Part shown: in pieces, positions 825 through 29,227 of the stretch
How the letters are laid out: every line of letters starts with the position of its first letter
Numbering within the stretch: the stretch's first letter is position 1
NCBI GenBank assembly: GCA_902779315.1
Contig: CACZBC010000025.1
Span: 1-33,419, forward strand
Direction of reading: 5' to 3'
DNA length: 33,419 nucleotides
From: an uncultured Bacteroidales bacterium
GTDB taxonomy: Bacteria > Bacteroidota > Bacteroidia > Bacteroidales > Bacteroidaceae
Translations under genes and position numbers: made by a program
The notes under the pieces: model-generated
Told to the model about the DNA's origin: nothing
What the model saw: the letters and a program-made list of their open reading frames with translations, nothing else
The model's database searches: none

Positions 825-852
825 TTCAATGTTCAATCTTCAATCCTCAATG
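825..852. repeat. 7-bp tandem repeat overlapping the M16 protease start
   Basis: Units TTCAATG, TTCAATC, TTCAATC and CTCAATG run without gaps. The ATG in the last unit (850-852) is the preferred protease start, and the ATG in the first unit (829-831) is in frame with it because three units equal 21 bases. Confidence 0.85.
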
Positions 853-2085
853 TTCACAACCTACACGCTTCCCCAAGGCCTTCGCGTTGTCTGTGCTCCG
901 GGACAGACGGATGTGGTGTATCTGGGTATCGCCGTTGATGCCGGGACCCGCCACGAACTGCCGTCCGAGAGCGGAATGGCGCATTTCACCGAGCACATGT
1001 CGTTCAAGGGGACCTCTCGGCGCTCGGCTCGTCAGGTCATTTCGGCCATGGAGAGTGTGGGAGGCGAACTGAATGCCTTCACGGGCAAAGAGGAGACGGT
1101 CTACTATTGCACCTCCCTTCGCGAGCATGCATCCCGCGCCATCGACCTCCTTCTCGACATAGCCCTCGGCAGCACCTATCCGCAGGAAGAGATGAACCGC
1201 GAGGTAGAGGTCGTCATCGACGAGATAGAGAGCTATCAGGACCAGCCCTCGGAGCTCATCTTCGACGAGTTCGAGAGCCTTCTTTTCCCAGGTCATCCCC
1301 TCGGACGCAACATACTTGGTGATGCCGAAACGCTCCGAACCTTCCGTTCAGCCGACATGCAGCGGTTTGCCCGCCGCCTCTATCATCCCGAAAGGATGGT
1401 GCTTTATGTCCTGGGAAATGTGGAGCCCGAGAAAGTGCTCCGTTGTGTGGAGAAAAACATGGCACGTTACGATTGCAATCGTCACACTAGTAAATTGCAA
1501 TCGTCACACTATACGATTGCCAACGTCACACGTGACGTTTCGCACATCACCCGCCATCGTGAAACACATCAGGCTCACGTATTGATTGGAGCCCAAGCCT
1601 TCGCCGCGACAGACCCCCGCCAACTTCATCTCTATTTCCTCAGCAACCTGCTGGGCGGACCAGCCATGAGCAGCCGTTTGAACCTTGCCCTTCGCGAGCG
1701 GAACGGTCTTGTCTATACCGTCGAAAGCAATTGCGTGGCCTATACCGACACAGGCATTTGGGCCATCTATTACGGTTGCGATGCAAAAGACCGCAACCGT
1801 TGCCGCCGACTTGTCCTTCACGAACTGGACAAGTTGACACAACACCCCCTCTCCAGCCACGCCCTCGAAGCAGCCCGTCGGCAGTTCAAAGGGCAGATAG
1901 GCATCTCCTACGACAACTTCGAAAACGTAGCCATCGGTATGGCGAAACGTTACCTCCATTATGGCAAAACGCTCTCCAAAGAACAGCTCTTCGAGCGCCT
2001 CGATGCCATAACGCCGGAAAATCTGCTCCAGACGGCACAATTTGTCTTCTCTCCCGACAAGTTTCTGACACTCGAATACGTCTGA
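850..2085 (+). CDS. M16 family zinc metalloprotease (processing-peptidase-like)
   Basis: About 411 residues from the ATG at 850, which gives MFTTYTLPQGLRVV, the normal start for this family. An in-frame ATG at 829 would add seven residues encoded by a 7-bp repeat and is less likely. The inverted zinc motif HFTEH is at residues 45-49, and the third ligand glutamate lies in VVIDEIESY, about residue 125. The C-terminal half carries the usual SSRLNLALRERNGLVYTVES region that helps form the active site. Such proteins are single-chain M16B peptidases. There is no signal peptide, so it is probably cytoplasmic. The linker between the two halves (about residues 203-232) is encoded by a 22-bp repeat array and reads as an unusual Thr/Ser/His-rich stretch. 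A 10-bp inverted repeat lies after the stop. Confidence 0.93.
   Translation: MFTTYTLPQGLRVVCAPGQTDVVYLGIAVDAGTRHELPSESGMAHFTEHMSFKGTSRRSARQVISAMESVGGELNAFTGKEETVYYCTSLREHASRAIDLLLDIALGSTYPQEEMNREVEVVIDEIESYQDQPSELIFDEFESLLFPGHPLGRNILGDAETLRTFRSADMQRFARRLYHPERMVLYVLGNVEPEKVLRCVEKNMARYDCNRHTSKLQSSHYTIANVTRDVSHITRHRETHQAHVLIGAQAFAATDPRQLHLYFLSNLLGGPAMSSRLNLALRERNGLVYTVESNCVAYTDTGIWAIYYGCDAKDRNRCRRLVLHELDKLTQHPLSSHALEAARRQFKGQIGISYDNFENVAIGMAKRYLHYGKTLSKEQLFERLDAITPENLLQTAQFVFSPDKFLTLEYV
1458..1545. repeat. 22-bp repeat array 1 (four units, inside the M16 gene)
   Basis: Units at 1458-1479, 1480-1501, 1502-1523 and 1524-1545. The last three begin CGTCACAC, and the fourth contains the perfect 6-2-6 inverted repeat CGTCAC-AC-GTGACG. 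The period is exactly 22, and the array is read through as codons, so successive units are translated in different phases. Confidence 0.88.
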
Positions 2086-2120
2086 GCCTTTCCCTTTTTG
2101 TACTTTTATACCCTTTTTCA

Positions 2121-2146
2121 TCCTTGTTAACATAATTTAACAAGGA
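2121..2146. promoter_or_regulatory. Perfect 10-bp inverted repeat upstream of the dockerin protein gene
   Basis: TCCTTGTTAA (2121-2130) and TTAACAAGGA (2137-2146) are perfect complements with a 6-base spacer. There is no T-run after it on the plus strand, so it is a poor intrinsic terminator for the protease gene. An operator for the gene at 2243 or an mRNA end structure are both possible. Confidence 0.5.
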
Positions 2147-2242
2147 AAAGGACACATTTTGTGAAAGAATGTGTAATTTTACGGAGCGAAGTTTAATTAT
2201 ATATAATGTATAATAATGTTTAACCCTTAATATTATATGATT

Positions 2243-5200
2243 ATGAAAAAATTATTTACTCCATTGTTAATGCTTGCAGCGCTGCTCAGCAGCACACAAG
2301 CTTGGGCCGCCACTTACAACCTTATTGTCTGTGGTGTTCAGGTCACTGACGCAAACAAGGACAACATCACGGCCTCTGGTATTTCTGGCTCCATTAGTTA
2401 TAATCCAGATAACAAACGACTGACAATTGGTGCCGGCACGACCATTAATTCGAGTGTCGATGGCATAAACAATACAGGCATCGACGGCCTGTCTATTCTT
2501 TTCGCAGGTGACGCTACCATTAAAAGTGGAGCGAATTCTGGCGCAGGCATTTTCTGTCAGGCGAGAACAACCCTGACATGTTATTCTGGTCCTAAGGCTC
2601 CTAATGTAACCATTGAGTGCACGGGAAATGGTAATGCCATCTGTAGTTACAACGGTTCCAATATTTCTATGTATGCTTTACGCCTCACTGCCAAGGCTAA
2701 AAACAACCATGCAATTTGTTCAAAAATACAAGGAACCCAAACGCCATCTATCTCTTTCGGTTGGACCAAACTCTATGCTTCAGCGCCTAGTGGTTATGCC
2801 GGCTTAACCGGCTTTACAGGCGGTATCAACTTTACCGCATCAACGTTATATGGAAACGAACAAATATCGAGTGGCACCGTGGTCAACAGCTCAGGCGATG
2901 CTTTGAAAGAAGTCTATGTCTATCCTCACGTGATGATTGGCGCTTGTAATCTGGGCACAGGCAAGACTACTTTGACAACTAATAATACAGGCGCCACGTC
3001 TGCATCGGGTACAGTCGAATACTCTACTTCGTCAAAGACGCTGACATTTACCAATGTCAATCTCAATGGCGCAGATCTTTTAACCTTTGCACCTGGCGAC
3101 TTGGCTATCAAGTTCAGTGGTGACGGCACAATCTCCTCCAGCGGCTATACGATGGACTTATATAGCAGCAACACAACAGTAACCAGTGATGGCACAGTAA
3201 CCATTACTTCTACAGGACAGGCTGCTGTGTACGTCAATGGAAGCAAAACCCTTTCCATTAGCGCACCACAATTCATAGCTCAAAGTACGGCAACAGATAA
3301 AAAGGGCCTGTATGCCGGATCAGGTACGGTGACGCTGAATAAATACGGTTCTTCTTGCGTTTACAAGTTTGCTGGTCCTGGTGCTAATATGCAGGTGAAG
3401 AAGCTTGTGATGAATGATATGGACATCTCGACACCAAACAGCTATTGGAATGCTTCAGATGGCTATTCCTACTACAGTGGTGCGATTGCCAAGGGAACGT
3501 CTGTCGGCAATGGCACATGGTTCATGCCAACCAGTTCAATCAGCTACTACAATCTCTGGGTAGCAGGTACGCACATCAAGCAGAACAACACAGAATACTT
3601 CTACAGTCCGTACCTTACTGCAGGTACTGTGAAGTATGATAACAATACGAAGACGCTGACATTAACTGATGCTACAATCTCAGGCCAACCCAGCGACGGG
3701 GCAGCGGAAACAAGATCTGCCATCTATAGCACCATCTCAGGTCTGACCATCAACGCAACAGGAACAAATAACTGGACATCCGATTGGATAACCGTGAACC
3801 TTGGTGGTGGCGGCACCAACACCATTAAAGGCACTGGTGACTTGAAAATTACCTCTAATCAATACCATGCAATGAACGCTTGGAATAATACTGGCATTAC
3901 GCTGGCACGTTCTAGTGGCTCAATGTCCTTAAAGGGTAAAAATCGTGGCATATACGGAAATAACACCACCACTCTAACCATCAACAAGGATGGCTCCGGT
4001 GCCCTTTATAAGTTTGCAGGCGAGGAAGGTAACATTACCAACCTCTCGTCGCTCACTTTCGGCTCTGGTGTGAATATTCAGGATGGGTACCAGTGGTTCA
4101 ATGCTGATGAAAAGGCTGTTTATTACAGGAGCGGTTTGGCAAAGTGTGCCACTATAGACGGAAGCACATCCACATGGATTCGTAGCAACGTCACATGGGA
4201 AACCTATCCTATTTATATCGCCGGCACACAGCTCTATGGAAGTGGTAGCTACGGCAATATTAGTGGTTGCTGGAACAAGTATGTCAAGGGAGGAGATATC
4301 ACATACAATCCCTCAACCAAGACCTTGACGCTCAATAATGCCAAGATAGAGAGTGTGGGAAGTCATGGTATTGAGATGAAATTGGAAGGAAATATCAAAC
4401 TTGTGGGAACAAACAGTTTATCTGCCAAAACTACCAATAATTCTAGGTATAGTGCCATCTGCGCCAATAAATTCAACATTACCATTACTGGTGATGGTTC
4501 ACTCAATGCAACAAGTGACAAGAATTGTGGTATACATGCACACGAGGGCATAGTTACTATCACAGATAATGTGAAGATAGATGCGACGGGCGACTGCGGC
4601 GGTCTCGGAAGTATTTCCAGCGACTACGCAGGAACATTCATTATCTCTGGCAATGCTCAAGTTAAGTCCAACAAGATTACTAATGTTGCAAGCCTTACTC
4701 TCGAAGATGGTCAGACTATCGTAGAACCTTTCAAGGCTGCTTTCAACTCAACGAACAAGCGTGTTGAGGTTAACGGATCTGTTGCTCAGAACGTAGTCAT
4801 CCAGAAAGTTGAGAAGTACGACTTGGCTGTCTGCGACATAGATGTCAATAGCTACAACAAGGACGACATTCTCCGCGACGGTGGTGCGTTCAAGTACACC
4901 CCGAACACAAAGCGTCTGACCATCAAAGATGCAAATATCGACGACCCCAACGTCTCCGAGGGTGTTTACAATTATGGCATCGAAGGCCTGAATATTGCCA
5001 TTGAGGGCGAGAACCACTTCAGGGTCACGGACGATGTCTTCAAAATGAAGAAATCCACTACTTTCAGCGGCAATGGTTCCGTCAAGGGCGAACTGACAGC
5101 AAGCGACGGCTGGGGCATCTATATGAACGGCAGCACCTATACCTGCACCCTCAACGGCCCGAAGTTCGAGTTCACAGGTCAAATAGCAGTTGGTGGTGGT

Positions 5201-5566
5201 GCAAATAATCTTGTAATTGAAAAGGGCGTATTGGCATTCAATCCAAATTCGTCCTCGGATGCTACAATTCTCAGGGTCAAAGGTCTGACTCTCGGCACAG
5301 GCATGATAATCGCAAAACCAGAGGGCGGTGTGTTCGATGACACCACACAAGGCATCGTCGTTAACGGCAGCCTGTATCATGGTCACGCAGTCATCTGTCA
5401 GAAGGGCGACGTGAACGTCGACGGTTCCGTAACCATCGCGGATGCTGTGGCAGTCTTGAACGCAATGGCAGGTCAGGAAGTTGCCGGCAATCCTGATGTG
5501 AACGGTGATAAGGAAGTTTCTATTGCCGACTTCGTAGCAGTCCTGAACATCATGGCAGGTCAGTAA
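2243..5566 (+). CDS. Secreted repeat protein with C-terminal dockerin-like module
   Basis: About 1107 residues from the ATG at 2243 (MKKLFTPLLMLAALL); an in-frame ATG at 2237 only adds two residues. A Sec signal peptide ends near AWA-ATY. The mature protein has five repeats of roughly 210 residues starting near 25, 231, 436, 655 and 859. Each opens with a strand such as YNLIVCGVQV, YNLWVAGTHI or YPIYIAGTQL, followed by a signature like YNPSTKTLTLNNAKI. The repeats resemble beta-helical, carbohydrate-binding-like domains of gut Bacteroidetes. Residues 1056-1107 hold two calcium-loop repeats (DVNVDGSVTIAD and DVNGDKEVSIAD), each ending in MAGQ, which is the type I dockerin pattern. Likely cell-surface or secreted. 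Ligand unknown. It has its own terminator. Confidence 0.85.
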   Translation: MKKLFTPLLMLAALLSSTQAWAATYNLIVCGVQVTDANKDNITASGISGSISYNPDNKRLTIGAGTTINSSVDGINNTGIDGLSILFAGDATIKSGANSGAGIFCQARTTLTCYSGPKAPNVTIECTGNGNAICSYNGSNISMYALRLTAKAKNNHAICSKIQGTQTPSISFGWTKLYASAPSGYAGLTGFTGGINFTASTLYGNEQISSGTVVNSSGDALKEVYVYPHVMIGACNLGTGKTTLTTNNTGATSASGTVEYSTSSKTLTFTNVNLNGADLLTFAPGDLAIKFSGDGTISSSGYTMDLYSSNTTVTSDGTVTITSTGQAAVYVNGSKTLSISAPQFIAQSTATDKKGLYAGSGTVTLNKYGSSCVYKFAGPGANMQVKKLVMNDMDISTPNSYWNASDGYSYYSGAIAKGTSVGNGTWFMPTSSISYYNLWVAGTHIKQNNTEYFYSPYLTAGTVKYDNNTKTLTLTDATISGQPSDGAAETRSAIYSTISGLTINATGTNNWTSDWITVNLGGGGTNTIKGTGDLKITSNQYHAMNAWNNTGITLARSSGSMSLKGKNRGIYGNNTTTLTINKDGSGALYKFAGEEGNITNLSSLTFGSGVNIQDGYQWFNADEKAVYYRSGLAKCATIDGSTSTWIRSNVTWETYPIYIAGTQLYGSGSYGNISGCWNKYVKGGDITYNPSTKTLTLNNAKIESVGSHGIEMKLEGNIKLVGTNSLSAKTTNNSRYSAICANKFNITITGDGSLNATSDKNCGIHAHEGIVTITDNVKIDATGDCGGLGSISSDYAGTFIISGNAQVKSNKITNVASLTLEDGQTIVEPFKAAFNSTNKRVEVNGSVAQNVVIQKVEKYDLAVCDIDVNSYNKDDILRDGGAFKYTPNTKRLTIKDANIDDPNVSEGVYNYGIEGLNIAIEGENHFRVTDDVFKMKKSTTFSGNGSVKGELTASDGWGIYMNGSTYTCTLNGPKFEFTGQIAVGGGANNLVIEKGVLAFNPNSSSDATILRVKGLTLGTGMIIAKPEGGVFDDTTQGIVVNGSLYHGHAVICQKGDVNVDGSVTIADAVAVLNAMAGQEVAGNPDVNGDKEVSIADFVAVLNIMAGQ

Positions 5567-5618
5567 CAGACGCACTCCCCAGCCTTTTCCAAAGGTAAGG
5601 GAAACTGATACAAGCAAA

Positions 5619-5656
5619 AGCCGCTTCGTCCATAAGGGCGAGGCGGCTCTTTTTTC
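5619..5656 (+). terminator. Strong terminator after the dockerin protein gene
   Basis: AGCCGCTTCGTCC (5619-5631) pairs, with two G-T wobbles, with GGGCGAGGCGGCT (5636-5648) around an ATAA loop, followed by a T-run. It separates the secreted-protein gene from the dcw cluster. Confidence 0.92.
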
Positions 5657-5895
5657 CAAAAACAGCAACACTCTTTTGCCAAAACATCAGCATTTTTCTG
5701 CTAATTCGTCATCTTTCCTCGTTTTTCCCCCACCATTTTGTAATGTCATGAAAAAAGTTTTCAACAACATTTCGTTGGGCTACGTAATGTGCTGAAACCC
5801 CTTTGCTTATGGGCTTTCGCGAAGGTGAAAGGCAAGCACATCGGCAAGTTATCAACAATATAGGCTAACTTGCTAAGAAAAAAAAGTTTAAATAA
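5657..5895. other. Gene-free stretch upstream of the mraZ promoter
   Basis: No convincing gene in either strand. It is A/T-rich with many short runs and contains one clear inverted repeat, GCAAGTTA (5844-5851) with TAACTTGC (5866-5873), spaced by 14 bases that include a TTATCAACA sequence. A 15-codon reading frame at 5748-5795 has no support. Confidence 0.6.
5844..5873. promoter_or_regulatory. Inverted repeat upstream of the mraZ promoter
   Basis: Perfect 8-bp arms, GCAAGTTA and TAACTTGC, with a 14-base spacer, ending 22 bases before the proposed -33 element. It could be a regulator site for the dcw cluster. No factor can be named from the sequence. Confidence 0.4.
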
Positions 5896-5929
5896 TTTGT
5901 GGGGAATTGTGGGGAATTTTATATCTTTG
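5896..5929 (+). promoter_or_regulatory. Bacteroidetes-type promoter of the dcw cluster
   Basis: TTTG at 5896-5899 and TATCTTTG at 5922-5929, a match to TAnnTTTG, spaced by 22 bases. Transcription would start a few bases after 5930, which rules out any mraZ start upstream of it and supports the ATG at 5961. Confidence 0.75.
5900..5914 (+). promoter_or_regulatory. Putative MraZ operator: two TGGGG boxes
   Basis: TGGGG at 5900-5904 and TGGGG at 5910-5914, separated by exactly five bases, lie between the -33 and -7 elements. MraZ of E. coli is known to bind TGGGN direct repeats with 5-base spacers in its own promoter, so the arrangement here fits autorepression. Confidence 0.7.
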
Positions 5930-5943
5930 CAGCAGAAAATGCA

Positions 5944-5964
5944 ATGAAAGCCCCAAATCGATGA
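5944..5964 (+). CDS. Possible six-codon leader peptide coupled to mraZ
   Basis: ATG at 5944 opens a frame encoding MKAPNR whose TGA (5962-5964) overlaps the mraZ ATG (5961-5963) as ATGA. It falls just downstream of the predicted transcription start. The overlap type matches the murG-murC and murC-ftsQ junctions, suggesting translational coupling, but a frame this short may be chance. Confidence 0.3.
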   Translation: MKAPNR

Positions 5965-6410
5965 GATTTACAGGAAGCATAGATGCCAAAACAGACGAGA
6001 AGGGACGTGTCTTCGTGCCTAGCGTCTTCCGCAAAATCCTTCAGAAAGAAGAGGAGGAAGGACTGGTGTTGCGTCGCGACATCTTCGAGAACTGTCTTGT
6101 GCTCTACCCCAAAAGTGTGTGGGATGCTCAGGTCAACTCCGTCAGAGCCCGCACCAATCCTTTCGACCGCCATCAGCGGCAAGGTTTGCGTCTCTTCACT
6201 GCCGATGCTGAAAACATCACCCTCGACAGTGGCGGACGTATGCTCATCCCTCGCCGATACATGGAACATGCCGGCATAAAGAGTGATGTGCGATTCATAG
6301 GAGTTGACGACACTATCGAAATCTGGAGTCGTCAGGCTGCCGAAGGACTGCTCAGCAATCCTGAGGAAGTGGCGAACATCCTGGAAGAGATGATGAAGGA
6401 CGACACATAA
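5961..6410 (+). CDS. mraZ: Transcriptional regulator MraZ
   Basis: 149 residues from the ATG at 5961 (MRFTGSIDAKTDEKGRVFVP). The frame is open upstream to 5907, but that lies within the promoter. Two tandem AbrB/SpoVT-like half-domains carry the MraZ signatures DEKGRVFVP near residue 12 and DSGGRMLIP near residue 92. MraZ forms a ring oligomer that binds DNA and represses its own operon. It is the first gene of the dcw cluster, with matching TGGGG boxes in its promoter. rsmH follows after 11 bases. Confidence 0.95.
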   Translation: MRFTGSIDAKTDEKGRVFVPSVFRKILQKEEEEGLVLRRDIFENCLVLYPKSVWDAQVNSVRARTNPFDRHQRQGLRLFTADAENITLDSGGRMLIPRRYMEHAGIKSDVRFIGVDDTIEIWSRQAAEGLLSNPEEVANILEEMMKDDT

Positions 6411-6421
6411 TTACATATGTA

Positions 6422-7348
6422 ATGAGCGTGAAATGTGAGGAATATCATGTGCCGGTTCTCTTGCAAGAGACAGTTGACGGACTCGATGTCAAGTCCGGAG
6501 GCATATATGCGGACCTCACATTTGGCGGAGGTGGCCATAGCAGGGAGATTCTGCGGCGCCTGAATGGCACGGGACACCTCTACAGTTTCGACCAAGACGA
6601 GGATGCGATGAAGAATGCAAGCGAGTTGGAAAGCGAAGGGAACTTCACTTTCGTTCGCAGCAATTTCCGTTTCCTGAAGAACTGGATGCTCTACTATGGG
6701 CATGAGCAGGTGGATGGCATTCTTGCCGACTTGGGTGTGAGCAGTCATCATCTCGACGAGGAAGAAAGGGGCTTCAGTTTCCGTTTCGATGCTCCGCTGG
6801 ATATGCGAATGAACCGTAAGGCCAGCCTCAATGCTGGGCGTATCGTGGCAGAGTATAGCGAAGAACAGTTGGCCGACATCTTCTACCTCTACGGAGAGTT
6901 GAAGAACAGCCGTCGCATTGCTGCCGCCATCGTCAAGGCTCGTCAGCAGAAGCCCATCACCACGACGACAGAACTGGTGGAAGTGCTGAAGCCTTTGATG
7001 GGATACGACCGCGAGAAGAAAGATTTGGCACGCGTCTTTCAGGCACTTCGTATAGAGGTGAACGGAGAGATGGTCGCCTTGAGGCAAATGCTTAGCGCTG
7101 TCACAGAAATCCTCAAGCCGGGTGGCAGATTGAGTGTTCTCACCTATCATTCTCTCGAAGACCGTATGGTGAAGAATATCATCAGAGCAGGCAATGCAGA
7201 AGGAAAGTTAGAGACTGACGTCTTCGGTCGCAGCGACGCTCCGCTCGAAGCGGTCAACAGGAGTGTCATCACTCCAAGCATTGAAGAGCAGGAAAGCAAT
7301 CCTCGAAGCCGTTCGGCAAAGCTTCGGGTAGCAAGAAAAAGAGATTAG
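6422..7348 (+). CDS. rsmH: 16S rRNA (cytosine-1402 N4) methyltransferase
   Basis: 308 residues, the expected length for RsmH (MraW). The N-terminus EEYHVPVLLQETVDGL is typical. The S-adenosylmethionine site is YADLTFGGGGHSREIL near residue 30, and VDGILADLGVSSHHLD near residue 97 is the family signature, followed by the substrate-binding helical insert. GGRLSVLTYHSLEDRMVKN is the conserved C-terminal motif. The enzyme methylates the 4-amino group of C1402 in the decoding centre of 16S rRNA. It is the standard second gene of the dcw cluster and lies 11 bases after mraZ. Confidence 0.97.
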   Translation: MSVKCEEYHVPVLLQETVDGLDVKSGGIYADLTFGGGGHSREILRRLNGTGHLYSFDQDEDAMKNASELESEGNFTFVRSNFRFLKNWMLYYGHEQVDGILADLGVSSHHLDEEERGFSFRFDAPLDMRMNRKASLNAGRIVAEYSEEQLADIFYLYGELKNSRRIAAAIVKARQQKPITTTTELVEVLKPLMGYDREKKDLARVFQALRIEVNGEMVALRQMLSAVTEILKPGGRLSVLTYHSLEDRMVKNIIRAGNAEGKLETDVFGRSDAPLEAVNRSVITPSIEEQESNPRSRSAKLRVARKRD

Positions 7349-7354
7349 TAACCT

Positions 7355-7876
7355 ATGGCAGAGATAGAAATAGATAACTTCGACGAACTCCAGGAAGAAG
7401 TTCAAGAGACCCAAGAGCAAGAGGTACAAGAGCAGGAGACCCAAGAGGTTGAAGAGGCTCAGGAACAGGAAGTTCAAGAAGCGGAAGTGGCTCAAGAGCA
7501 AGTCAGCAACAAGGAAAAGCTGATGCGTTCATTGGTTAGCGACGACGATGAAGTGGACGAGCTGACTGCTGCCAACATCCGTCAGATGCTGGATGCCGCT
7601 CCTAGATGGTTCCTCAGTCAATGGAAGATGTTGCTCCTTGTCTTGGCTGGAATATTCCTTTACATCACGAATGGCTATCAGGCTCAAGTCGAGATGATGA
7701 AGGAAAACGAACTCGAGGCAGAACTCAAGGACTGGCGTTACAGAAGCATTACCAGAGTGAGCGAACTCACACAACTCTGTCGGCAGAGCCAACTCGAGCA
7801 AAAGCTTCGTGAACAGGGCGACAGCACACTCACGCCAAGCAAGGTTGCGCCATTCATTATCAACGTGAAGGAATAG
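7355..7876 (+). CDS. ftsL: FtsL-like division protein with acidic Glu/Gln-rich N-terminus
   Basis: 173 residues. One transmembrane segment (about residues 93-111, KMLLLVLAGIFLYITNGY) is followed by a short periplasmic helical domain that could form a coiled coil with FtsB-like partners. The assignment rests on position between rsmH and the PBP gene plus this topology, since FtsL is poorly conserved. The cytoplasmic part is unusually long, about 90 residues. Residues 13-50 are almost only Glu, Gln and Val in a repeated EVQEQETQE-like pattern. A very similar EQETQETQE run occurs near the C-terminus of FtsA in this cluster. It starts six bases after rsmH. Confidence 0.8.
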   Translation: MAEIEIDNFDELQEEVQETQEQEVQEQETQEVEEAQEQEVQEAEVAQEQVSNKEKLMRSLVSDDDEVDELTAANIRQMLDAAPRWFLSQWKMLLLVLAGIFLYITNGYQAQVEMMKENELEAELKDWRYRSITRVSELTQLCRQSQLEQKLREQGDSTLTPSKVAPFIINVKE

Positions 7877-7888
7877 GGATAAAAGATT

Positions 7889-9997: not shown

Positions 9998-10009
9998 ATA
10001 ATGTAGGAA

Positions 10010-11464
10010 ATGAAACTTATACAACTCATACAAGATTGCGCGCCACAAAAGGTGGTGGGAAGTGTCGAAAAGGAAGTGACAGGCATCGAGATTGATAGCC
10101 GTCGCATCCAGAAAGGTGCAGTTTTCGTAGCTATGAGAGGCACTCAGGTTGACGGCCATACTTTCATCGGAAAGGCAATCGAACTGGGAGCGAGTGTTGT
10201 GGTTTGCGAAAAGTTGCCCGAAACGGTTCAAGACGAAGTGACTTATCTCGTCTATCCCAATACTGAGGATGTGGTCGGAACGTTGGCAACTCACTATTTT
10301 GGTGACCCAAGTCAGAGGATGCACCTCATCGGAGTGACTGGTACGAATGGCAAAACCACCATCGCAACCGTGCTTTACAACATTTTCCGCCAGCGTGGAT
10401 ACAAGTGCGGACTTTGCAGTACTGTCTGCAATTACATTGATGGAGAGGCAGTTCCTACAGAAGTGACGACTCCAGACCCCATCACTTTGAACCGATTACT
10501 CGGCAGAATGGCGGATGAGGGCTGTGCCTATGCCTTTATGGAAGTCAGCAGTCATAGTGTCAGCCAAAAGCGTATAGGAGGTCTCAACTTCAGTGGAGGC
10601 ATCTTCACCAACCTGACTCGCGACCATCTCGACTATCATGGAACGTTCGAGAACTATCGTGATGCCAAGAAAGGTTTCTTCGATGCTTTGCCTGCAGACG
10701 CTTTCGCCATCATCAATGCGGATGACCGTAATGGAATGGTTATGGTGCAGAACTGCAAGGCGAAGGTCAAGACATACTCGCTCCACTCTGCTGCCGACTT
10801 CAAGGCTCGCATTATGGAGGAGAGTTTCGAGGGTATGGACTTGGAGATTGACGGCAGAGACGTGAGTGTCCAGTTCGTTGGACGATTCAATGTGAGCAAC
10901 TTGTTGGCCGTATATGGAGCTACAGTCATGCTTGGAGTCGAGCCGCAAGAAGCCCTCGTTCTGCTAAGTGCTCAGAAACCCGTAAACGGCCGCTTCGAGG
11001 CGATTCGCTCGCGAGAAGGGGTTACGGCTATCGTCGACTATGCCCACACACCTGATGCTCTCGTCAATGTTCTCACTACTATCAACGAGGTTTTGCAGGG
11101 GAAGGGACAGTGCTGGACCGTTTGTGGAGCTGGTGGGAACCGCGATAAAGGCAAGCGTCCCATCATGGCTCAAGAGGCTGTGAAGAATAGCGACAGAGTC
11201 ATCATAACGAGCGACAATCCCAGAAACGAAGACCCTCAGGAGATCATCAACGACATGTTGGCTGGTCTCGATACAAGCCAGCGAAGAAATGTCATCAGCA
11301 TAGTTGACCGTAGAGAAGCCATCAGAACGGCTTGCACGATGGCCCAACCTGGGGATGTGATCCTCGTTGCAGGCAAAGGTCACGAAGACTATCAAATCGT
11401 AAAAGGAGTGAAGCATCACTTCGACGACCACGAGGTGATTCGCGAAGCCTTTAACCTGATATGA
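10010..11464 (+). CDS. murE: UDP-MurNAc-L-Ala-D-Glu:meso-diaminopimelate ligase
   Basis: 484 residues with the three Mur ligase domains. The ATP loop is [12 protein letters not shown] near residue 108. The central domain contains [14 protein letters not shown] and [13 protein letters not shown]. The C-terminal domain has [10 protein letters not shown] and the motif [14 protein letters not shown] at this site is the known signature for adding meso-diaminopimelate rather than lysine, so the organism should have DAP-type peptidoglycan. It acts in the cytoplasm at the third amino-acid addition to the UDP-MurNAc peptide. It starts 12 bases after ftsI and is followed by an unusual 160-base gap. Confidence 0.96.
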
Positions 11465-11467
11465 AAA

Positions 11468-11577
11468 CGTCACACTAGTAAATTGCAAACGTCACACTAG
11501 TAAATCGCAAACATCACACTAGTAAATCGCCAACGTCACACTATACGATTTCAAACGCAACACTAGGTCGTCATAAA
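11468..11577. repeat. 22-bp repeat array 2 (five units, murE-mraY gap)
   Basis: Units at 11468-11489, 11490-11511, 11512-11533, 11534-11555 and 11556-11577, beginning four bases after the murE stop. The first three carry the core CACACTAGTAAAT followed by TGCAAA or CGCMAA. The fourth has CACTATACG in place of the ACTAGT core, and the fifth is degenerate. This is the cleanest array in the window. Confidence 0.93.
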
Positions 11578-11624
11578 GAAGCAACAGAAAACAATATAAC
11601 ACAACAAACGGACAACATAAAGAT

Positions 11625-12890
11625 ATGCTTTATTACCTGTTCAGATACTTAGGCGAATTCGGAGTTTCAGGAGCCCATGTTTGGCACTATATCTCCTTCC
11701 GAGCAGTCCTCACCTTGGTCTTGAGCCTTATTATTTCCATGTGGTTTGGCGAATATTTCGTCAGATGGATGAGGAAGCACAATGTCAGCGAGGAACAAAG
11801 AGATGCCAGCATCGACCCCTATGGTGTGGAGAAGAAGGGCGTTCCCACTATGGGAGGCATCATCATCATAGTCGCCACACTCGTTCCTTGTCTGCTTCTG
11901 GGCCGACTTCGCAATATCTATATGCTCATCATGCTTTTCACCACAATTTGGCTTGGAGCACTTGGTTTTGCCGACGACTATATCAAGATGAAGGTCACGA
12001 AGGACGGACTTCGCCCCATCTGGAAGCTCCTCGGCCAAGCAGTACTCGGCTTGGTGATTGGCCTGACACTTTGGATGAGCCCCGATGCCGTTATCTGCGA
12101 GAACATTCAGGATGAGAGACAAGGCACAGAGCAAGTTGTGACACATAGGAGCGAAGAGGTGAAGAGCACCATCACTACTATTCCGTTCGTCAAGAACAAC
12201 AACCTCAACTATGCGGATATCTTCTCGTTCTTGGGCAAATACAAGTCCGCAGCAGGTTGGATCTTCTTCGTTCTTGTCACCACCTTCATTGTGATGGCGG
12301 TCAGCAACGGTTCCAACCTGAACGATGGAATGGACGGTTTGTGTGCCGGAAACGCGGCAATCATGTGTATCGCCCTGGGCATCCTGGCTTATGTGAGCAG
12401 TCACATCCACATGGCTGCCTACCTTAATATAATGTATATCCCAGGTTCGGAAGAGCTCGTCATATTCATCTGTGCTTTCGTAGGTGCTTTGATTGGTTTC
12501 CTCTGGTATAACGCCTATCCAGCCCAAGTGTTTATGGGCGATACGGGAAGCTTGGCAATAGGTGGCATCATAGGTGTTACGGCCATCATCATACACAAGG
12601 AACTGCTTTTGCCTCTGCTTTGCTTCGTCTTCTTGATGGAAAGCATAAGTGTGCTTTTGCAGACCAACTATGCCAAGATGGGCAATAAGCGAGGACAGAA
12701 ATGGCGCGTTTTCAAACGTGCTCCTCTACATGATACATTCAGAGTAAAGCCAGGACAATTGCCTGCAGACTTCAAGGTGCTCATCAATTGGCCTAAAGGA
12801 TGTTGGTTGGAATCAAAGATAACTGTCCGATTCTGGATTGTGACAATCATCATGGCGGCTCTCGCCATCGTAACATTGAAGATTAGATAA
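11625..12890 (+). CDS. mraY: Phospho-N-acetylmuramoyl-pentapeptide transferase
   Basis: 421 residues with about ten membrane segments. It makes lipid I by moving phospho-MurNAc-pentapeptide onto undecaprenyl phosphate at the inner membrane. Family motifs are GVPTMGGIIII, the Asp-rich FADDYIKM, SNGSNLNDGMDGL and NAYPAQVFMGDTGSLA, all intact. It is longer than the roughly 360-residue E. coli enzyme because of a hydrophilic insert around residues 150-195 (ICENIQDERQGTEQV and on), a feature of Bacteroidetes MraY. It is preceded by a gap of 160 bases that contains repeat array 2, with no clear TAnnTTTG promoter. murD begins two bases after its stop. Confidence 0.97.
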   Translation: MLYYLFRYLGEFGVSGAHVWHYISFRAVLTLVLSLIISMWFGEYFVRWMRKHNVSEEQRDASIDPYGVEKKGVPTMGGIIIIVATLVPCLLLGRLRNIYMLIMLFTTIWLGALGFADDYIKMKVTKDGLRPIWKLLGQAVLGLVIGLTLWMSPDAVICENIQDERQGTEQVVTHRSEEVKSTITTIPFVKNNNLNYADIFSFLGKYKSAAGWIFFVLVTTFIVMAVSNGSNLNDGMDGLCAGNAAIMCIALGILAYVSSHIHMAAYLNIMYIPGSEELVIFICAFVGALIGFLWYNAYPAQVFMGDTGSLAIGGIIGVTAIIIHKELLLPLLCFVFLMESISVLLQTNYAKMGNKRGQKWRVFKRAPLHDTFRVKPGQLPADFKVLINWPKGCWLESKITVRFWIVTIIMAALAIVTLKIR

Positions 12891-12892
12891 AG

Positions 12893-14227: not shown

Positions 14228-14241
14228 GAACAGAAGTGAAG

Positions 14242-15462: not shown

Positions 15463-15470
15463 TATATATA

Positions 15471-18714: not shown

Positions 18715-18715
18715 T

Positions 18716-20047: not shown

Positions 20048-20072
20048 CACATTACCTTAAACAGATACAACT

Positions 20073-21383: not shown

Positions 21384-21387
21384 AGGT

Positions 21388-22116: not shown

Positions 22117-22220
22117 ATTCACTTTTCTTCTTTCAGTATGTAAAGGTACAAAAAAACGAGCACTTTGTAGGCTTCGAATAGGAAAAATGCAAAGAAAGTA
22201 ACATTTTTCTTTGAAATAAT

Positions 22221-22251
22221 TTTGTCAGTCTCAGAAAATGTTATACCTTTG
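22221..22251 (+). promoter_or_regulatory. Promoter for tRNA-Glu and rpsT
   Basis: TTTG at 22221-22224, a 19-base spacer, and TACCTTTG at 22244-22251 form a near-ideal Bacteroidetes primary sigma factor promoter. It lies about 55 bases before the tRNA and most likely drives both tRNA-Glu and rpsT. Confidence 0.85.
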
Positions 22252-22305
22252 CACCCGCAATTGAGCCCTCGTACTCAAAAGCACTGGCAAAAAAGCCGAA
22301 GGTAA

Positions 22306-22377
22306 GGTCCCTTCGTCTATCGGTTAGGACGAGAGATTTTCATTCTCTAAAGAGGAGTTCGACTCTCCTAGGGACTA
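22306..22377 (+). tRNA. tRNA-Glu (anticodon TTC)
   Basis: A 72-base cloverleaf. Acceptor arms GGTCCCT and AGGGACT pair with a G-T wobble at the end, and the discriminator base is A. The anticodon stem AGAGA/TCTCT holds the seven-base loop TTTTCAT with anticodon TTC. The T arm AGGAG-TTCGACT-CTCCT is standard. The genomic sequence continues CAA, so the CCA end is not encoded. The next gene, rpsT, is 34 bases away and probably co-transcribed. Confidence 0.96.
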
Positions 22378-22411
22378 CAAGAAAAAGTAATAAAATAAGA
22401 TAGAAAAACAG

Positions 22412-22666
22412 ATGGCTAATCACAAATCATCACTTAAGCGCATCCGTCAGGAGGAGAAGAGAAGACTCCACAATCGCTATTACGCTAAGACTATGCGTAA
22501 TGCAGTGCGCAAGCTTCGTGCTACAACCGAGAAGGCTGCAGCAATTGAGATGTATCCCAGTGTTCAGAAGGCACTTGACAAACTCGCTAAGATTAACGTC
22601 ATTCACGCTAATAAGGCTGCTAACCTGAAGTCTAAACTGGCAAAGTACATCCAGAAGCTCGGCTAA
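22412..22666 (+). CDS. rpsT: 30S ribosomal protein S20
   Basis: 84 residues, highly basic, starting [20 protein letters not shown], the typical S20 N-terminus, and ending with the conserved helix [21 protein letters not shown]20 binds 16S rRNA early in small-subunit assembly. It follows tRNA-Glu behind the promoter at 22221-22251 and is closed by a strong hairpin shared with gyrB. Confidence 0.98.
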
Positions 22667-22700
22667 GAAGCCAAATCTCTTTTAGCTATAACGGAACAAA

Positions 22701-22730
22701 AAGGCAACTCATTTCGAGTTGCCTTTTTTG
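22701..22730. terminator. Bidirectional terminator between rpsT and gyrB
   Basis: AAGGCAACTC (22701-22710) and GAGTTGCCTT (22716-22725) are perfect 10-bp complements with an ATTTC loop, with a T-run after it on the plus strand and an A-run before it that serves the minus strand. It can end both convergent transcripts. Confidence 0.93.
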
Positions 22731-22751
22731 TTTATGCTTGTGTTGTGTGGG

Positions 22752-24929
<2,178 letters not shown>

Positions 24930-25089
24930 TTACATCTTCGAACTTCGAGGCAGAAGTTTACACACTTGAGACAAGGTGAATTCTCACGGTGAAATGGGTG
25001 ATTTTTATGCATTTCGTGTGGTTTTGGAGATGCTGAGGCATGGGATAGAAAACGTGAAGTTATTGGACATTTGCTGAGGGTTTTCATGG

Positions 25090-25199
25090 TGTGGCACTTT
25101 ATGATCGAAATCTTATAGTGCCACGTTTGCAATCGTGACACTATACGTTTGCAATCGTAACGTGTTACGTTTGCCTTTTACACGTGCCACGTTTTCAAT
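25090..25199. repeat. 22-bp repeat array 3 (five units, upstream of the sensor/phosphatase gene)
   Basis: Units at 25090-25111 (degenerate), 25112-25133, 25134-25155, 25156-25177 and 25178-25199. The unit at 25156 contains the perfect inverted repeat CGTAAC-GT-GTTACG. Most units end in TTTGCAAT or a close variant. The array ends about 90 bases before the predicted -7 element of the downstream gene. Confidence 0.88.
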
Positions 25200-25249
25200 T
25201 TAGCTTGCCTGCGTTTTGTGTTTTTACGTATTATGGAATTTTTTTCGAA

Positions 25250-25276
25250 AAGATTAGTATGAAAAGTACTAATCTT
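25250..25276. promoter_or_regulatory. Inverted repeat overlapping the promoter of the sensor gene
   Basis: AAGATTAGTA (25250-25259) and TACTAATCTT (25267-25276) are perfect 10-bp complements with a 7-base spacer. They end 13 bases before the -7 element, covering the region where a -33 element is expected. This is typical placement for a dimeric repressor or activator site. Confidence 0.6.
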
Positions 25277-25289
25277 ACAGAAAATTGTG

Positions 25290-25297
25290 TATTTTTG
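25290..25297 (+). promoter_or_regulatory. -7 element for the sensor/phosphatase operon
   Basis: TATTTTTG matches TAnnTTTG and lies 18 bases before the ATG at 25316. No clear -33 TTG is seen at the normal distance; that region is the inverted repeat at 25250-25276, which suggests activator-dependent or repressed expression. Confidence 0.55.
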
Positions 25298-25315
25298 TAG
25301 AGCGTAGTACGTAGA

Positions 25316-27511
25316 ATGTCGAATTGCATGGGTATACTGAATAAAATAATAGATGTATTTAGGAAAAGGAGAGGACTTTCCCTTGTTATTGTGGCGGTTG
25401 TGCTGCTGGAATTGTTGTCAGCAGTTCAGTACTACTATACCCACCACTTGATGGAAGACGAGTTGGAGAAGTATGCTGGAATGGAGTTGACGACGAAAGC
25501 CATCATCACAAAGCGCCTTGTCGAGGATACAGAACACGCCTTGAAGAGCCACATTATGGAGATTAAGTACAATCTCTCCACTCCAGACTCTATGTTCAAC
25601 ATTTTGGCACAGATTGCCAAATACACTCCCAATCTGCGTGGTTGCGGCATTTCCTTCAATCCAGGCTACTATAAAGACAAAGACAGGCTGTTCGAACCCT
25701 ATGCCTTGAGAACGGATACTGACATTGTCCGGCTGCAGGCAGCGTCTGACGGGTTTGATTACACGAAGGACGGCTTCTACAAAGACATTATGGAGAGGAA
25801 AGCCAACAGTTGGGTTGGACCGTACGACGATATCTACTTGGAAATGAGGCTCGTCAGCTATGCTGTGCCCATTTACGATTTCACGGGTGATACTGTGGCT
25901 GTGTTTGGCGTAGATATCGATACGCACAGCTTGGGCGATACGCTGAACTACCGACACATCTATCCCTCGTCTTTCGTTCTTCTCCTTACCGAAGAAGGTG
26001 AACCGATAGCCGGCCCGTCAGACCCCAGTTTAGATAAAGAAGTGAAGTATGTCACCTCTCTCATCAATGATAGCACCGTTGCTCGCCGTCTGAGCCATAA
26101 GGGACGAGGCAAAGTGATAGACTTCGACACAGACAAACGCGATGGTGCCGTCTTCTATGTCAATATGAGGGGTATACCACATTGGCAAATAGCCGTCGTT
26201 TGCTACGATGATGAAGTGTATGGCTCGCTCCTGAAACTGAGGTATCGTCTCCTATTGCTTTCGTTGTTGGCGTTTGGCATTCTGCTCTATCTGGTCCGTC
26301 GTTTTGCTAAAGACGAGCAGAAGTTGAGAAACCAAACATTGGAGCAGGAACGTTTGGCAGGCGAACTTCGTATTGCAAACAACATACAGCAAACCCTTTT
26401 GCCAGAGGAAGAGTCGTCGTTGAACAGCCTCGATGACGTTCGAGTAGAGGGCCGACTGATACCTGCAAAGGCTGTCGGAGGCGATCTCTACAATGCCTTC
26501 GTCCGTGATGGAAAGGTGTTCTTCTGTATTGGCGATGTTAGCGGCAAAGGCATTCCTTCGGCTCTCATCATGGCTATCATTCAAGCACTCTTCCGCAATA
26601 TTGCTTCTCGCGAAGACAATCCTGCCCACATCATGAAGCGCCTTAACGAGACGGCCTGTCGTAACAACAAAGCCAACATCTTTGTCACGCTATTCATAGG
26701 CGTTCTCGACTTGCCGACGGGCCATCTCCGCTATTGTAATGCAGGACATGAAAAGCCCATACTCGTCGATCAATGTTCTTTGTTGGAGACAAAGCCAAAC
26801 CTTCCTATCGGACTTTTCGACGACTTTGACTACGTCATGCAGAAGTTGGTATTGAAGCCTGGTTCGACTCTCTTCTTCTATACTGACGGACTTACAGAAG
26901 CGCGTAACGAGAAAGGCAAGTTGCTCGGACGGGAAAAGCTGATGCAAATGATTTCGGAATGTGGCACGAAAGAACCCAAGCAACTGGTCGAAGCAATCAT
27001 CAACCAATGGCATCAGTTCATCGGCTCAACAGAGCAAAGCGACGACCTGACCTTGCTTGCGCTACGCTATACACCATCGCAGGAGGAAAACATTCTGGGT
27101 GAAAGCATTACGCTGGAGAATGACGTGAAGGAAGTCGAAGCCCTCGGCTCCTTCGTAAAGCAAGTGACAGAGCACTTGTCGCTCGACAAATCAATGGCAA
27201 ACAAGTTGCGTCTTGCCGTAGAGGAAGCCGTAGTAAACGTCATGGAATATGCCTATCCGAAAGGAACAAAAGGCGATGTGAACATACGGGCCGCCTCGGA
27301 TGGCCATAAGCTGGAATTCATCATTACCGACTCTGGCACTCCCTTCAATCCGACAGAAGTCACAGCTGCAGACACGACACTTTCTGCAGAGGAACGACCC
27401 GTAGGAGGTCTCGGCATATTGCTTGTCCGCGAGCTCATGGACTCTATCAATTACGAACGTATCGACGGCAAAAACGTCTTGACAATAAGCAAAATAATTA
27501 AAAAGGAATAA
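25316..27511 (+). CDS. Membrane sensor fused to PP2C phosphatase and RsbW-like kinase domains
   Basis: 731 residues; an ATG at 25328 is an alternative start. A membrane helix (about 18-40), an extracytoplasmic Cache-like sensor region (about 45-310) and a second helix (about 314-335) lead to a short coiled coil. A SpoIIE/RsbU-type PP2C phosphatase follows (about 370-585), with metal-site residues G389-D390, GDVSGKG at 406-412, YTDGL around D524 and SDD at 575-577. The C-terminal domain (about 600-731) is a GHKL ATPase of the RsbW/SpoIIAB anti-sigma kinase type, with N641 in EEAVVNVMEYAY, ITDSGTPFNP and VGGLGILLVREL. Thus opposing phosphatase and kinase activities sit on one chain. The STAS gene four bases downstream is the evident substrate. 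No sigma factor gene is nearby. Confidence 0.9.
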   Translation: MSNCMGILNKIIDVFRKRRGLSLVIVAVVLLELLSAVQYYYTHHLMEDELEKYAGMELTTKAIITKRLVEDTEHALKSHIMEIKYNLSTPDSMFNILAQIAKYTPNLRGCGISFNPGYYKDKDRLFEPYALRTDTDIVRLQAASDGFDYTKDGFYKDIMERKANSWVGPYDDIYLEMRLVSYAVPIYDFTGDTVAVFGVDIDTHSLGDTLNYRHIYPSSFVLLLTEEGEPIAGPSDPSLDKEVKYVTSLINDSTVARRLSHKGRGKVIDFDTDKRDGAVFYVNMRGIPHWQIAVVCYDDEVYGSLLKLRYRLLLLSLLAFGILLYLVRRFAKDEQKLRNQTLEQERLAGELRIANNIQQTLLPEEESSLNSLDDVRVEGRLIPAKAVGGDLYNAFVRDGKVFFCIGDVSGKGIPSALIMAIIQALFRNIASREDNPAHIMKRLNETACRNNKANIFVTLFIGVLDLPTGHLRYCNAGHEKPILVDQCSLLETKPNLPIGLFDDFDYVMQKLVLKPGSTLFFYTDGLTEARNEKGKLLGREKLMQMISECGTKEPKQLVEAIINQWHQFIGSTEQSDDLTLLALRYTPSQEENILGESITLENDVKEVEALGSFVKQVTEHLSLDKSMANKLRLAVEEAVVNVMEYAYPKGTKGDVNIRAASDGHKLEFIITDSGTPFNPTEVTAADTTLSAEERPVGGLGILLVRELMDSINYERIDGKNVLTISKIIKKE

Positions 27512-27515
27512 AGAT

Positions 27516-27818
27516 ATGAAAACAAACATTGAACAACTGGAGGACAAAATCCTCGTGGTACTCGAAGGTGAACTCGACACAGCAGCTGCTGCCGAAGTGG
27601 AAAAGACTTTGCAACCACTCTATGCTACAAACGGCAAGGATGTCATCATCGATTGCGAAGGCTTGGACTACATCGCATCAAGCGGTTTGCGTATCCTCAT
27701 CAGCATCCTGAAAGGGGCAAAAGCAGGTGGCAGTAAGGTTGTCTTGAAGAACATGAACGAGGACATCAAGAGCGTCTTCAAGCTGACAGGTTTCATCAAC
27801 ATTTTCGATGTGGAATAA
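27516..27818 (+). CDS. STAS-domain anti-sigma factor antagonist-like protein
   Basis: 100 residues, one STAS domain of the SpoIIAA/RsbV type. The phosphorylation loop is LDYIASSGLRIL with serines at 55 and 56, so the acceptor serine is present. Family knowledge says the dephosphorylated form binds a kinase or other target and the phosphorylated form does not. It starts four bases after the phosphatase/kinase gene, which carries both matching activities. Its stop overlaps the porin start (TAATG), so all three genes are translated from one message. Bacteroidetes generally lack sigma-B, so its downstream target is unknown. Confidence 0.92.
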   Translation: MKTNIEQLEDKILVVLEGELDTAAAAEVEKTLQPLYATNGKDVIIDCEGLDYIASSGLRILISILKGAKAGGSKVVLKNMNEDIKSVFKLTGFINIFDVE

Positions 27819-29119
27819 TGAGAAAAGGAGTTATTCTGCTGCTTTTGCTTGTAGCGACAAGTGCTTTTGCTCAAGAGGAAGCGGATAAAGGTAAGAACCA
27901 GCTCGACATAGACTTGAATATGTTGGGTCGTGGCGAGATGCGATTCGGTGGTTTCACTGAAGGCGCTGAGGAGAATCGTGCCCAGTTCCTTTTGGAGAGA
28001 ACACGTCTGTCGATAGGTTACAAGCGCCCCTACATCGAGGCAAAGGTGACTGCCCAGCATAGTGGAGTTTGGGGACAAGGCAACAAGGGCAGCTTCAATC
28101 TCTATGAAGCATGGGCAAAGCTGACTGCAAAGAACGGCCTCTTTGCCAAGATGGGACGACAAGTGCTTTCCTACGACGACGAACGCATCATTGGTGCCAA
28201 CGATTGGGCGATGGCAGCGAACTCGCACGACGTCTTGAAGTTCGGCTATGAAGGCTTCGGACACAAAGTTCATGCGATATTCGGCTTCAACCAGAATGCA
28301 GAGAACATCAGTGGTGGCACGCTGTATACGGGTGACTCGTACAAGCTCATGCACACCTTATGGTACCATTACGACGTTCCAAAGATACCGATTGGCGCTT
28401 CTCTTCTGTTCATGAACATTGGCATGCAGGGCGACGAACACAATTATGACGATTATTCGGAACCTTGCAACAGATACCAGCAACTGGTAGGTGGATACCT
28501 TTCCTACAAGCCAAAGAAATTGGCAGTGGAGGCTTCGTATTATCACCAGTTAGGCCGTACCGAGGAAAATAGCAAGATAGATGCCTGGATGGCAAGTATC
28601 AAGGCACAATATCAAATCTCCCCCAAAGTGGGAGTTGTATCAGGTTACGATTATCTGAGTGGTGACGATTACTTCGTCGTTCGCAAACATGGGGGGATAG
28701 GCCTCGTCCAACATAAAGTCTTCAAATTCTTCAACCCCGTATATGGCTCTCACCATAAGTTCTACGGCTTGATGGACTTCTTCTATGTGCAGGCCTTTAG
28801 CGACACGTTCTCGCCAGGTTTGCAGAACCTTTATGCAGGAGCGTCCTACAGCCCCATCAAAGGATTGAACCTGAGCGCGACATACCACTATTTGGCAACG
28901 GCAACATCGCTGAAGGGCTTGAACAAGACTTTGGGACACGATATCGACTTCGAAGCGTCCTATCAGATACTGAAGGATGCTCGAGTTTCACTCGGCTTCT
29001 CGTATATGGCAGGCACGGATACGATGGAACAATTAAAGCGAACCGAGGGCAACGACGACCTGAAGTGGGCCTGGTTCACACTCATCGTTTCGCCTCGCAT
29101 CATATCAAAGAAATGGTAG
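27818..29119 (+). CDS. Outer-membrane beta-barrel porin, alginate-export-like
   Basis: 433 residues with a clear signal peptide (MRKGVILLLLLVATSAFAQ, cleaved near AFA-QEE). The rest is a run of amphipathic strands ending in a C-terminal tryptophan. LYEAWAKLTAKNGLFAKMGR followed by QVLSYDDERIIGANDWA resembles the alginate-export porin family (Alginate_exp), and the strand-rich C-terminal half fits. The substrate cannot be inferred. It overlaps the STAS gene by one base, so it belongs to the same transcript as the sensor module. It is followed by repeat array 4 and then the NRPS gene. Confidence 0.85.
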   Translation: MRKGVILLLLLVATSAFAQEEADKGKNQLDIDLNMLGRGEMRFGGFTEGAEENRAQFLLERTRLSIGYKRPYIEAKVTAQHSGVWGQGNKGSFNLYEAWAKLTAKNGLFAKMGRQVLSYDDERIIGANDWAMAANSHDVLKFGYEGFGHKVHAIFGFNQNAENISGGTLYTGDSYKLMHTLWYHYDVPKIPIGASLLFMNIGMQGDEHNYDDYSEPCNRYQQLVGGYLSYKPKKLAVEASYYHQLGRTEENSKIDAWMASIKAQYQISPKVGVVSGYDYLSGDDYFVVRKHGGIGLVQHKVFKFFNPVYGSHHKFYGLMDFFYVQAFSDTFSPGLQNLYAGASYSPIKGLNLSATYHYLATATSLKGLNKTLGHDIDFEASYQILKDARVSLGFSYMAGTDTMEQLKRTEGNDDLKWAWFTLIVSPRIISKKW

Positions 29120-29227
29120 AGGCATGGAATGATTCCAAACGTAACACGTGACGTTTGCCGATGACACACGTGACGTTTGCCAACGACACACGTGATGATC
29201 GCCAACGACACACGCCTAATTTTCCAG
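29118..29227. repeat. 22-bp repeat array 4 (five units, porin-NRPS gap)
   Basis: Units at 29118-29139 (degenerate, touching the porin stop), 29140-29161, 29162-29183, 29184-29205 and 29206-29227. The core ACACGTGACG plus TTTGCC recurs. The unit at 29140 has CGTAAC-AC-GTGACG, one mismatch from a perfect 6-2-6 palindrome. No intrinsic terminator or TAnnTTTG promoter is visible in this gap. Confidence 0.88.

Follow-up and report, generated by a model that had tools for sequence, protein, structure and literature searches.

Dispersed arrays with a 22-bp period in Bacteroidaceae genomes: persisting positions, changing units, and a putative role at the chromosome level

The closest described systems include the repetitive extragenic palindromic (REP) units and bacterial interspersed mosaic elements (BIMEs), which are described as hundreds of mainly extragenic palindromic units that are clustered in alternating orientations and have species-specific sequences (PMC2817692, PMC3733652). 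The same accounts state that the palindrome is preserved by complementary changes, that BIMEs bind gyrase and integration host factor (IHF), and that a role in chromosome organization has been suggested (PMC2817692, PMC3733652). Here we describe arrays of a 22-bp unit in a 33,419-nucleotide stretch of DNA (the window; contig CACZBC010000025.1) from an uncultured Bacteroidales bacterium, and we follow these arrays through its genome and those of its relatives. Porphyromonas gingivalis belongs to the same bacterial order. Its BrickBuilt minisatellite, a miniature inverted-repeat transposable element (MITE), is reported to have a 23-nt unit and 19 dispersed, intergenic genome copies of 1 to 22.8 repeats, with leader and tail segments of up to ~300 nt that carry terminal inverted repeats (PMC4596501). 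The open-licence literature, judged by title and the opening of the abstract, yielded no description of the arrays reported here, which is weak evidence.

The unit sequence of these arrays differs between species while their position and period persist. We tentatively favor the reading that they are putative chromosomal platforms for multi-site binding, which would act at the DNA level on chromosome shape.

The 22-bp unit within and beyond the window

The four arrays that a preliminary description had reported in the window were confirmed, each inside the span then given for it (Table 1). With the unit pattern TTGCNANCGTNACACNNNACG and up to 3 mismatches allowed, the window contains 15 matches compared to 1.03 expected from shuffles (at least 15 in 0/100 shuffles), and 13 of these 15 fall inside the four arrays. 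As a tally of the family, four loci proved to be an undercount. The assembly of the window's genome (G000; 107 contigs, 2,825,570 bases, 84% complete) contains 863 unit matches versus 102 for a reversed-pattern control, and 183 versus 0 at no more than 1 mismatch, indicating a genome-wide family rather than four isolated places. We counted 89 arrays in 789 kb of this genome, approximately one per 8.9 kb; by extrapolation, there would be some 300 arrays per genome, mostly short. The period had been called strict, which is nearly right: most steps are 22 bp, with some steps of 21 or 23 bp in the relative G092, where the 61 within-array steps measure 22 (44 cases), 44 (3), 21 (8), 23 (4), and 43 bp (2).

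At no more than 1 mismatch, the window's unit type is abundant in four of 139 same-genus genomes, namely G000, G058 (202 matches), G054 (138), and G039 (73). G052, G085, G088, and G092 have 4-7 matches each, and the remaining genomes have 0-2, equal to the control level. Of the 58 stretches returned by a scan of named genome contigs, 55 carry Bacteroidaceae titles, most of them yak rumen or omasum assemblies, and the other three are titled Bacteroidales, Nitrosomonas, and Chloroflexaceae, respectively. The Nitrosomonas and Chloroflexaceae contigs (L047 and L087) carry single exact unit matches, perhaps by chance. Exact cores that are frequent in other genomes include GCCGCACGCGG in G092 (426 against 1), TTAACACGTTA in G039 (109 against 1), and GCAGCRCTTTT in G148, which belongs to another genus (419 against 1).

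We also scanned for the period without reference to any sequence, accepting 40-bp segments in which 28 or more positions match at a lag between 12 and 39. In 400 kb of G000, 36 places were found at lag 22, compared to 0, 3, and 0 at lags 20, 21, and 23. The 16 further clade genomes (408 kb; the clade genomes are drafts listed as 57-92% complete) gave 40 places at lag 22 versus 0, 2, and 0. Elsewhere in the genus, the peak that is sharp in the clade weakens: 752 kb in 39 stretches gave 19 places at lag 22 versus 1, 6, and 2. Sampling of 20 genomes from 18 other genera (20 kb each, 400 kb) gave 13 places at lag 22 and 0 at lags 20, 21, and 23; these 13 are spread over six genomes in five genera, and G148 alone accounts for six. 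No place at lag 22 was found in 200 kb of Escherichia coli K-12. These results bear on an explanation without function, in which 22-bp tandem slippage, template-switch correction of imperfect palindromes, and gene conversion between copies would make and homogenize the arrays. We regard this as decidedly unlikely: a sequence-independent 22-bp step that extends over several genera needs a ruler, and the E. coli sequence lacks such a peak.

Orthologous sites and change over time

We compared orthologous sites at three loci, those of arrays 1, 2, and 4, a choice made because arrays occur there in the window; the gyrB-side array 3 was left out. The M16 peptidase gene containing array 1 had a match in 139/139 same-genus genomes (E ≤ 0.001), and 30 loci were fetched, of which the 22 with at least 71% protein identity were tested for the period. 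Lag 22 was best in 17 of the 22, and no period was seen in G032, G027, G085, G067, and G076. Fourteen of the 17 array-bearing genomes have arrays of equal length at this site; in the other three (G024, G050, and G081) the site is 21 bp longer, one unit minus one base, and the reading frame is kept. The units themselves differ: CGTCACACTAGTAA in G000, CGTAACACGTTAAG in G039, CGCCGCGTGCGGGG in G092, GAGCCACACCATTA in G024, and ACTCCAGTACCACCACGGGAGT in G058. Compared in register over 80 bp, the 14 equal-length arrays show a mean identity of 0.50 (range 0.28-1.00). In eight more distant M16 orthologues (G121, G074, G086, G071, G072, G021, G101, and G104), the linker is similarly long and shows no visible repeats.

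In eight further genomes (G099, G116, G049, G042, G073, G018, G075, and G126), the match to the M16 gene breaks at approximately residues 207-212 and resumes at approximately residues 237-244. Each break falls in one long open frame at the place of the window's array, with ~310 bp between the two pieces in G099.

Base-exact length at the M16 site would also be expected from a coding linker, and the gap that holds array 2 offers a freer test. We take the Mur ligase gene upstream of this gap to be murE and, by gene order and sequence, the gene downstream to be mraY. Searches of 24 clade genomes matched murE in 24 and the porin-like gene beside array 4 in 17. In the murE-mraY gap, lag 22 was best in 19/23 genomes (G124 excluded by a contig end, G058 represented by contig C163); G067 and G032 showed none, and the best lags in G076 and G007 were 18 and 27, respectively. 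By eye, the gap is equal in G000, G054, G058 (contig C163), and G088; in G128 it measures 22 bp less. A second G058 copy of the gap has ~2 units instead of 5. The murE copies on the G058 contigs C163 and C122 (L127 and L150) are 98% and 96% identical to the window's, perhaps reflecting two strains in one draft. At the porin site, lag 22 was best in 9/17 genomes. Neither outcome that would have spoken against a functional family was seen: the unit extends over the whole genome, and at orthologous sites the 22-bp period persists in many relatives.

Outside the clade, 25 of 29 further murE loci (six from the same genus, the rest from other genera) have a measurable gap. It ranges from 3 to 95 bp with a median of 12, and no array was seen in it by eye. 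This short, array-free gap makes a gain of the murE-mraY array within the clade probable. Such a gain favors the main and serious rival explanation, a mobile minisatellite. In this view the arrays would be non-autonomous and akin to the BrickBuilt MITE, spread by a putative transposase that avoids sites close to existing copies (target immunity), which would yield even spacing, and the units of different species would represent element lineages. The hundreds of copies with a preference for gaps between genes, the absence of the porin-site array in some species, and the frequent by-eye likeness of array ends (AAAACG on one side, CGTTTT on the other) are consistent with this explanation. It is opposed by the persistence of site and (nearly) of length while the unit changes, for which insertion alone is insufficient, and we consider it unlikely.

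Searches for transposases also bear on mobility. For the Y1 transposase of REP elements (RAYT, PF01797), 15 of 22 genomes lacked a match, including the array-rich G000, G054, G058, G039, and G092, which counts against a mobile element; seven genomes did match, five of them array-bearing (G016, G081, G091, G102, and G128). In reading these counts, G000 is 84% complete, and the control matched in 5/14 control genomes. Because no Y1 transposase match was found in G000, we rejected membership of the REP/RAYT family for the window's genome, which leaves room for a BIME-like way of working. The ends of Mu and Tn7 carry repeated transposase sites of ~22 bp, and target immunity spaces their copies over several kb. 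The C-terminal domain of Mu-type transposases (PF09299) had no match in 23 genomes, yet 14/14 control genomes were equally silent.

Short-term change was followed in 32 listed pairs of arrays from G000 and near relatives, from which removal of duplicates (L060/L097 and L003/L012) left 30. The length differences were 0 in 15 pairs, 22 in 8, 44 in 3, -44 in 1, -10 in 2, and 89 in 1, so that 27/30 pairs differ by 0 or by an exact multiple of 22. The pair loci were found via array matches, and the frequency with which both genomes keep an array is therefore overstated. Length shifts by mostly whole units are in line with the slippage and conversion processes described above, as are the free unit sequence, the rather homogeneous interior of the arrays, their location at tolerant sites (gene ends and the M16 linker), and conservation equal to that of the margins.

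Symmetry, placement, and spacing

The preliminary description had proposed that symmetry of the unit is maintained, and this holds in part. Among 78 units with GTnA-type right arms, 46 have complementary arms compared to 32.7 expected (chi-square p = 1.3e-4, with units that share one array not being independent), so the arms covary in this type. The commonest of the 331 anchored units in 789 kb of G000, with right arms TAGTAA (87) and TATACG (49), are not full palindromes. Dyad excess of the consensus over shuffled units (p ≤ 0.05) was found in 9/36 arrays of G000, 17/40 of the clade, and 9/19 of the rest of the genus. As a description, a tandem dyad unit has two dyad centers 11 bp apart, and an array can thus be read as alternating 11-bp half-sites. 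A universal AC center, suggested by eye, was dropped, since some arrays are centered differently, for example on AT or TA.

Genes were called with a simple custom caller rather than a standard program, and the following placements are correspondingly crude. In 433 kb of G000, 48/52 arrays are intergenic, in a set that counts a few single units as arrays. In codirectional gaps, 27/29 arrays lie closer to the upstream stop than to the downstream start, as counted by hand. The 89-array set occupies 21/65 convergent, 57/440 codirectional, and 8/61 divergent gaps, with 3 arrays inside genes. Scored against transcription, 11 arrays have the AC center in sense and 10 in antisense orientation, with 12 more set aside as mixed or unclear; strand preference is not clear among the 21 scorable arrays. 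We considered whether the arrays are RNA elements, transcribed at gene ends as terminators or stabilizers of mRNA 3' ends. Their location near stop codons is compatible with such elements. The balanced orientation of the center speaks against them, as do the array inside a coding region, the array in the murE-mraY gap, which is probably within an operon, and a density of approximately one array per 8.9 kb, too sparse for general terminators. No Rfam family was found at any of the four window arrays, and we judge this explanation very improbable.

Table 1. Window arrays and the genes beside them, with the spans assigned a period of 22 by Tandem Repeats Finder
Feature	Position	Strand	Period-22 span	Description
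Array 1	1458..1545	+	1468-1531 (6% indels)	~4 units of 22 bp; in frame within M16 peptidase gene, past start of second domain match; ~residues 210-239
M16 peptidase gene hosting array 1	829..2085	+		Peptidase_M16 residues 26-165, Peptidase_M16_C 175-352
Array 2	11465..11577	+	11465-11543	~5 units of 22 bp; begins immediately 3' of murE stop codon
murE-like gene (Mur ligase), upstream of array 2	10010..11464	+		Domains Mur_ligase, Mur_ligase_M, Mur_ligase_C
mraY-like gene, downstream of array 2	11625..12890	+		Glycosyl transferase family 4 domain
Array 3	25090..25199	.	25123-25174	22-bp units, orientations mixed (AC and GT centers); between gyrB and SpoIIE-type gene
gyrB, left of array 3	22752..24794	-		Domain match
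SpoIIE-domain gene, right of array 3	25316..27511	+		Domain match
Array 4	29118..29227	+	29144-29214	~4 units of 22 bp; first unit ~20 bp past stop of outer-membrane-type gene
Gene with alginate-export (porin-like) domain, upstream of array 4	27818..29119	+		Domain match

The distances between arrays in G000 have a median of 6.7-6.8 kb and are more even than expected. For the 76 spacings of the intergenic set, the coefficient of variation (CV) is 0.62, versus 0.91 in a stratified null in which an equal number of arrays was randomly placed in gaps of matched orientation and residual length (as low in 1/5000 draws). Spacings below 3 kb number 4/76, versus 19.2 expected (as low in 0/5000 draws). 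This evenness was stable over ten detection settings (P ≤ 0.015 for CV and ≤ 0.0003 for close pairs). Two relatives had no spacing below 3 kb under a random null that ignores genes: 0/35 versus 7.2 in G092 (first 100 of 426 core places) and 0/51 versus 7.4 in G039 (first 100 of 109), each with P ~3e-4. These two results rest on the first 100 listed exact cores, and many arrays are thus missed. Even spacing as a family-wide rule was dropped, being weak in G148. Arrays without function would not be expected to be evenly spaced in G000, nor to lack close pairs in the incomplete lists for G092 and G039.

Five array-free stretches of G000 exceed 18 kb. Three have a lower guanine-cytosine (GC) content (0.40, 0.44, and 0.45) than the genome sample (0.49), a pattern that the mobile minisatellite would accommodate, and two have a higher one (0.53). 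One stretch, at 59314-92957 of contig C1, has no detected array over 33.6 kb at a GC content of 0.40 versus 0.49 and is perhaps acquired DNA.

The window also has a weak fifth place with 22-bp self-similarity, a T-rich segment at 5642-5720 directly after a terminator-like hairpin. It lies above the lag threshold, shows no clear unit, and is included in the array sets of 52 and 89. Upstream, 2237-5566 encodes a protein of 1109 aa that ends in a dockerin-like domain, and a terminator-like hairpin follows the gene.

A possible role in chromosome shape and comparison with known systems

The common phase, the two-fold symmetry, the absence of strand preference, and the even spacing fit a structural role at the DNA level. 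We infer protein binding, its coevolution with the unit sequence, and a purpose in chromosome organization. In such a mechanism, the arrays, lying approximately 7 kb apart and for the most part between genes, would serve as platforms on which a DNA-binding protein of two-fold symmetry (or gyrase) docks once per 22 bp. A step of 22 bp is approximately two helical turns, which would align bound dimers on one face of the helix. The arrays would probably anchor or bound supercoiled domains. A shift in the protein's taste between lineages could then lead to the unit being rewritten over many arrays together.

The preliminary description had likewise read the arrays as structural, or as elements that bind protein at multiple sites, and not as random satellite DNA. 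We favor that view, to which the even spacing adds, and several results weigh against it. No binding protein was identified for the arrays. A single genome may carry several unrelated 22-bp units, in which case a single sequence-specific protein would not bind them all. Neither TAGTAA nor TATACG complements the CGTCAC left arm, most G000 units are not full dyads, and in other genera dyad excess was not significant (2/13 arrays). Spacing in G148 is only weakly even, with 11/61 spacings below 3 kb versus 17.9 expected (P = 0.03), and 8/17 genomes lack a 22-bp array at the porin site. Over short evolutionary distances, arrays were also not better conserved than the sequence around them: identity is 0.905 in arrays, 0.896 in 30-bp margins, and 0.920 in gene flanks (23 arrays, one of them a duplicate; Wilcoxon p 0.79 and 0.93).

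The division of bacterial chromosomes into supercoiled domains is an open question, and to our knowledge few fixed domain-boundary sequences have been described. For E. coli, one source gives 400-500 domains, which would be ~10 kb each (PMC3820752). A repeat that occurs approximately every 7 kb at persisting sites would represent a fixed, testable candidate for a domain boundary. A unit that changes between species while phase and place are kept would provide a clear case of either coevolution or in-place rewriting of dispersed repeats. More broadly, the arrays might form a Bacteroidaceae-wide system that marks ~7-kb domains through even spacing and a 22-bp phase and binds a putative protein, with the recognition sequence rewritten between species while positions, phase, and often unit number persist. 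We regard this wider formulation as possible, if rather doubtful.

CRISPR was rejected because the 8-bp spacers between cores are not unique, with ATTGCAAA, for example, occurring 36 times among 331 units. The 23-nt unit of BrickBuilt was not encountered, as 400 kb of G000 gave 0 places at lag 23 versus 36 at lag 22. Of the tags GTAG and CGTC, one of which marks a foot of the REP stem, CGTC opens many G000 cores; judged by eye, it is missing from the units in most other species.

In sharing a short tandem unit and dispersed, intergenic arrays, the system described here resembles BrickBuilt, from which it differs in its 22-bp unit and in its mostly short, far more numerous arrays (some 300 per genome by extrapolation, compared to 19 copies). 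Its ~22-bp repeated sites and the spacing of copies over several kb recall Mu and Tn7. Like REP and BIME sequences, the arrays consist of high-copy, mainly extragenic palindromic units, but the commonest units in G000 are not full dyads. By analogy, they may work like the BIMEs of E. coli. Unlike REP and BIME sequences, the arrays share one 22-bp period over several genera while their sequence is free, and they persist, evenly spaced, at orthologous sites.

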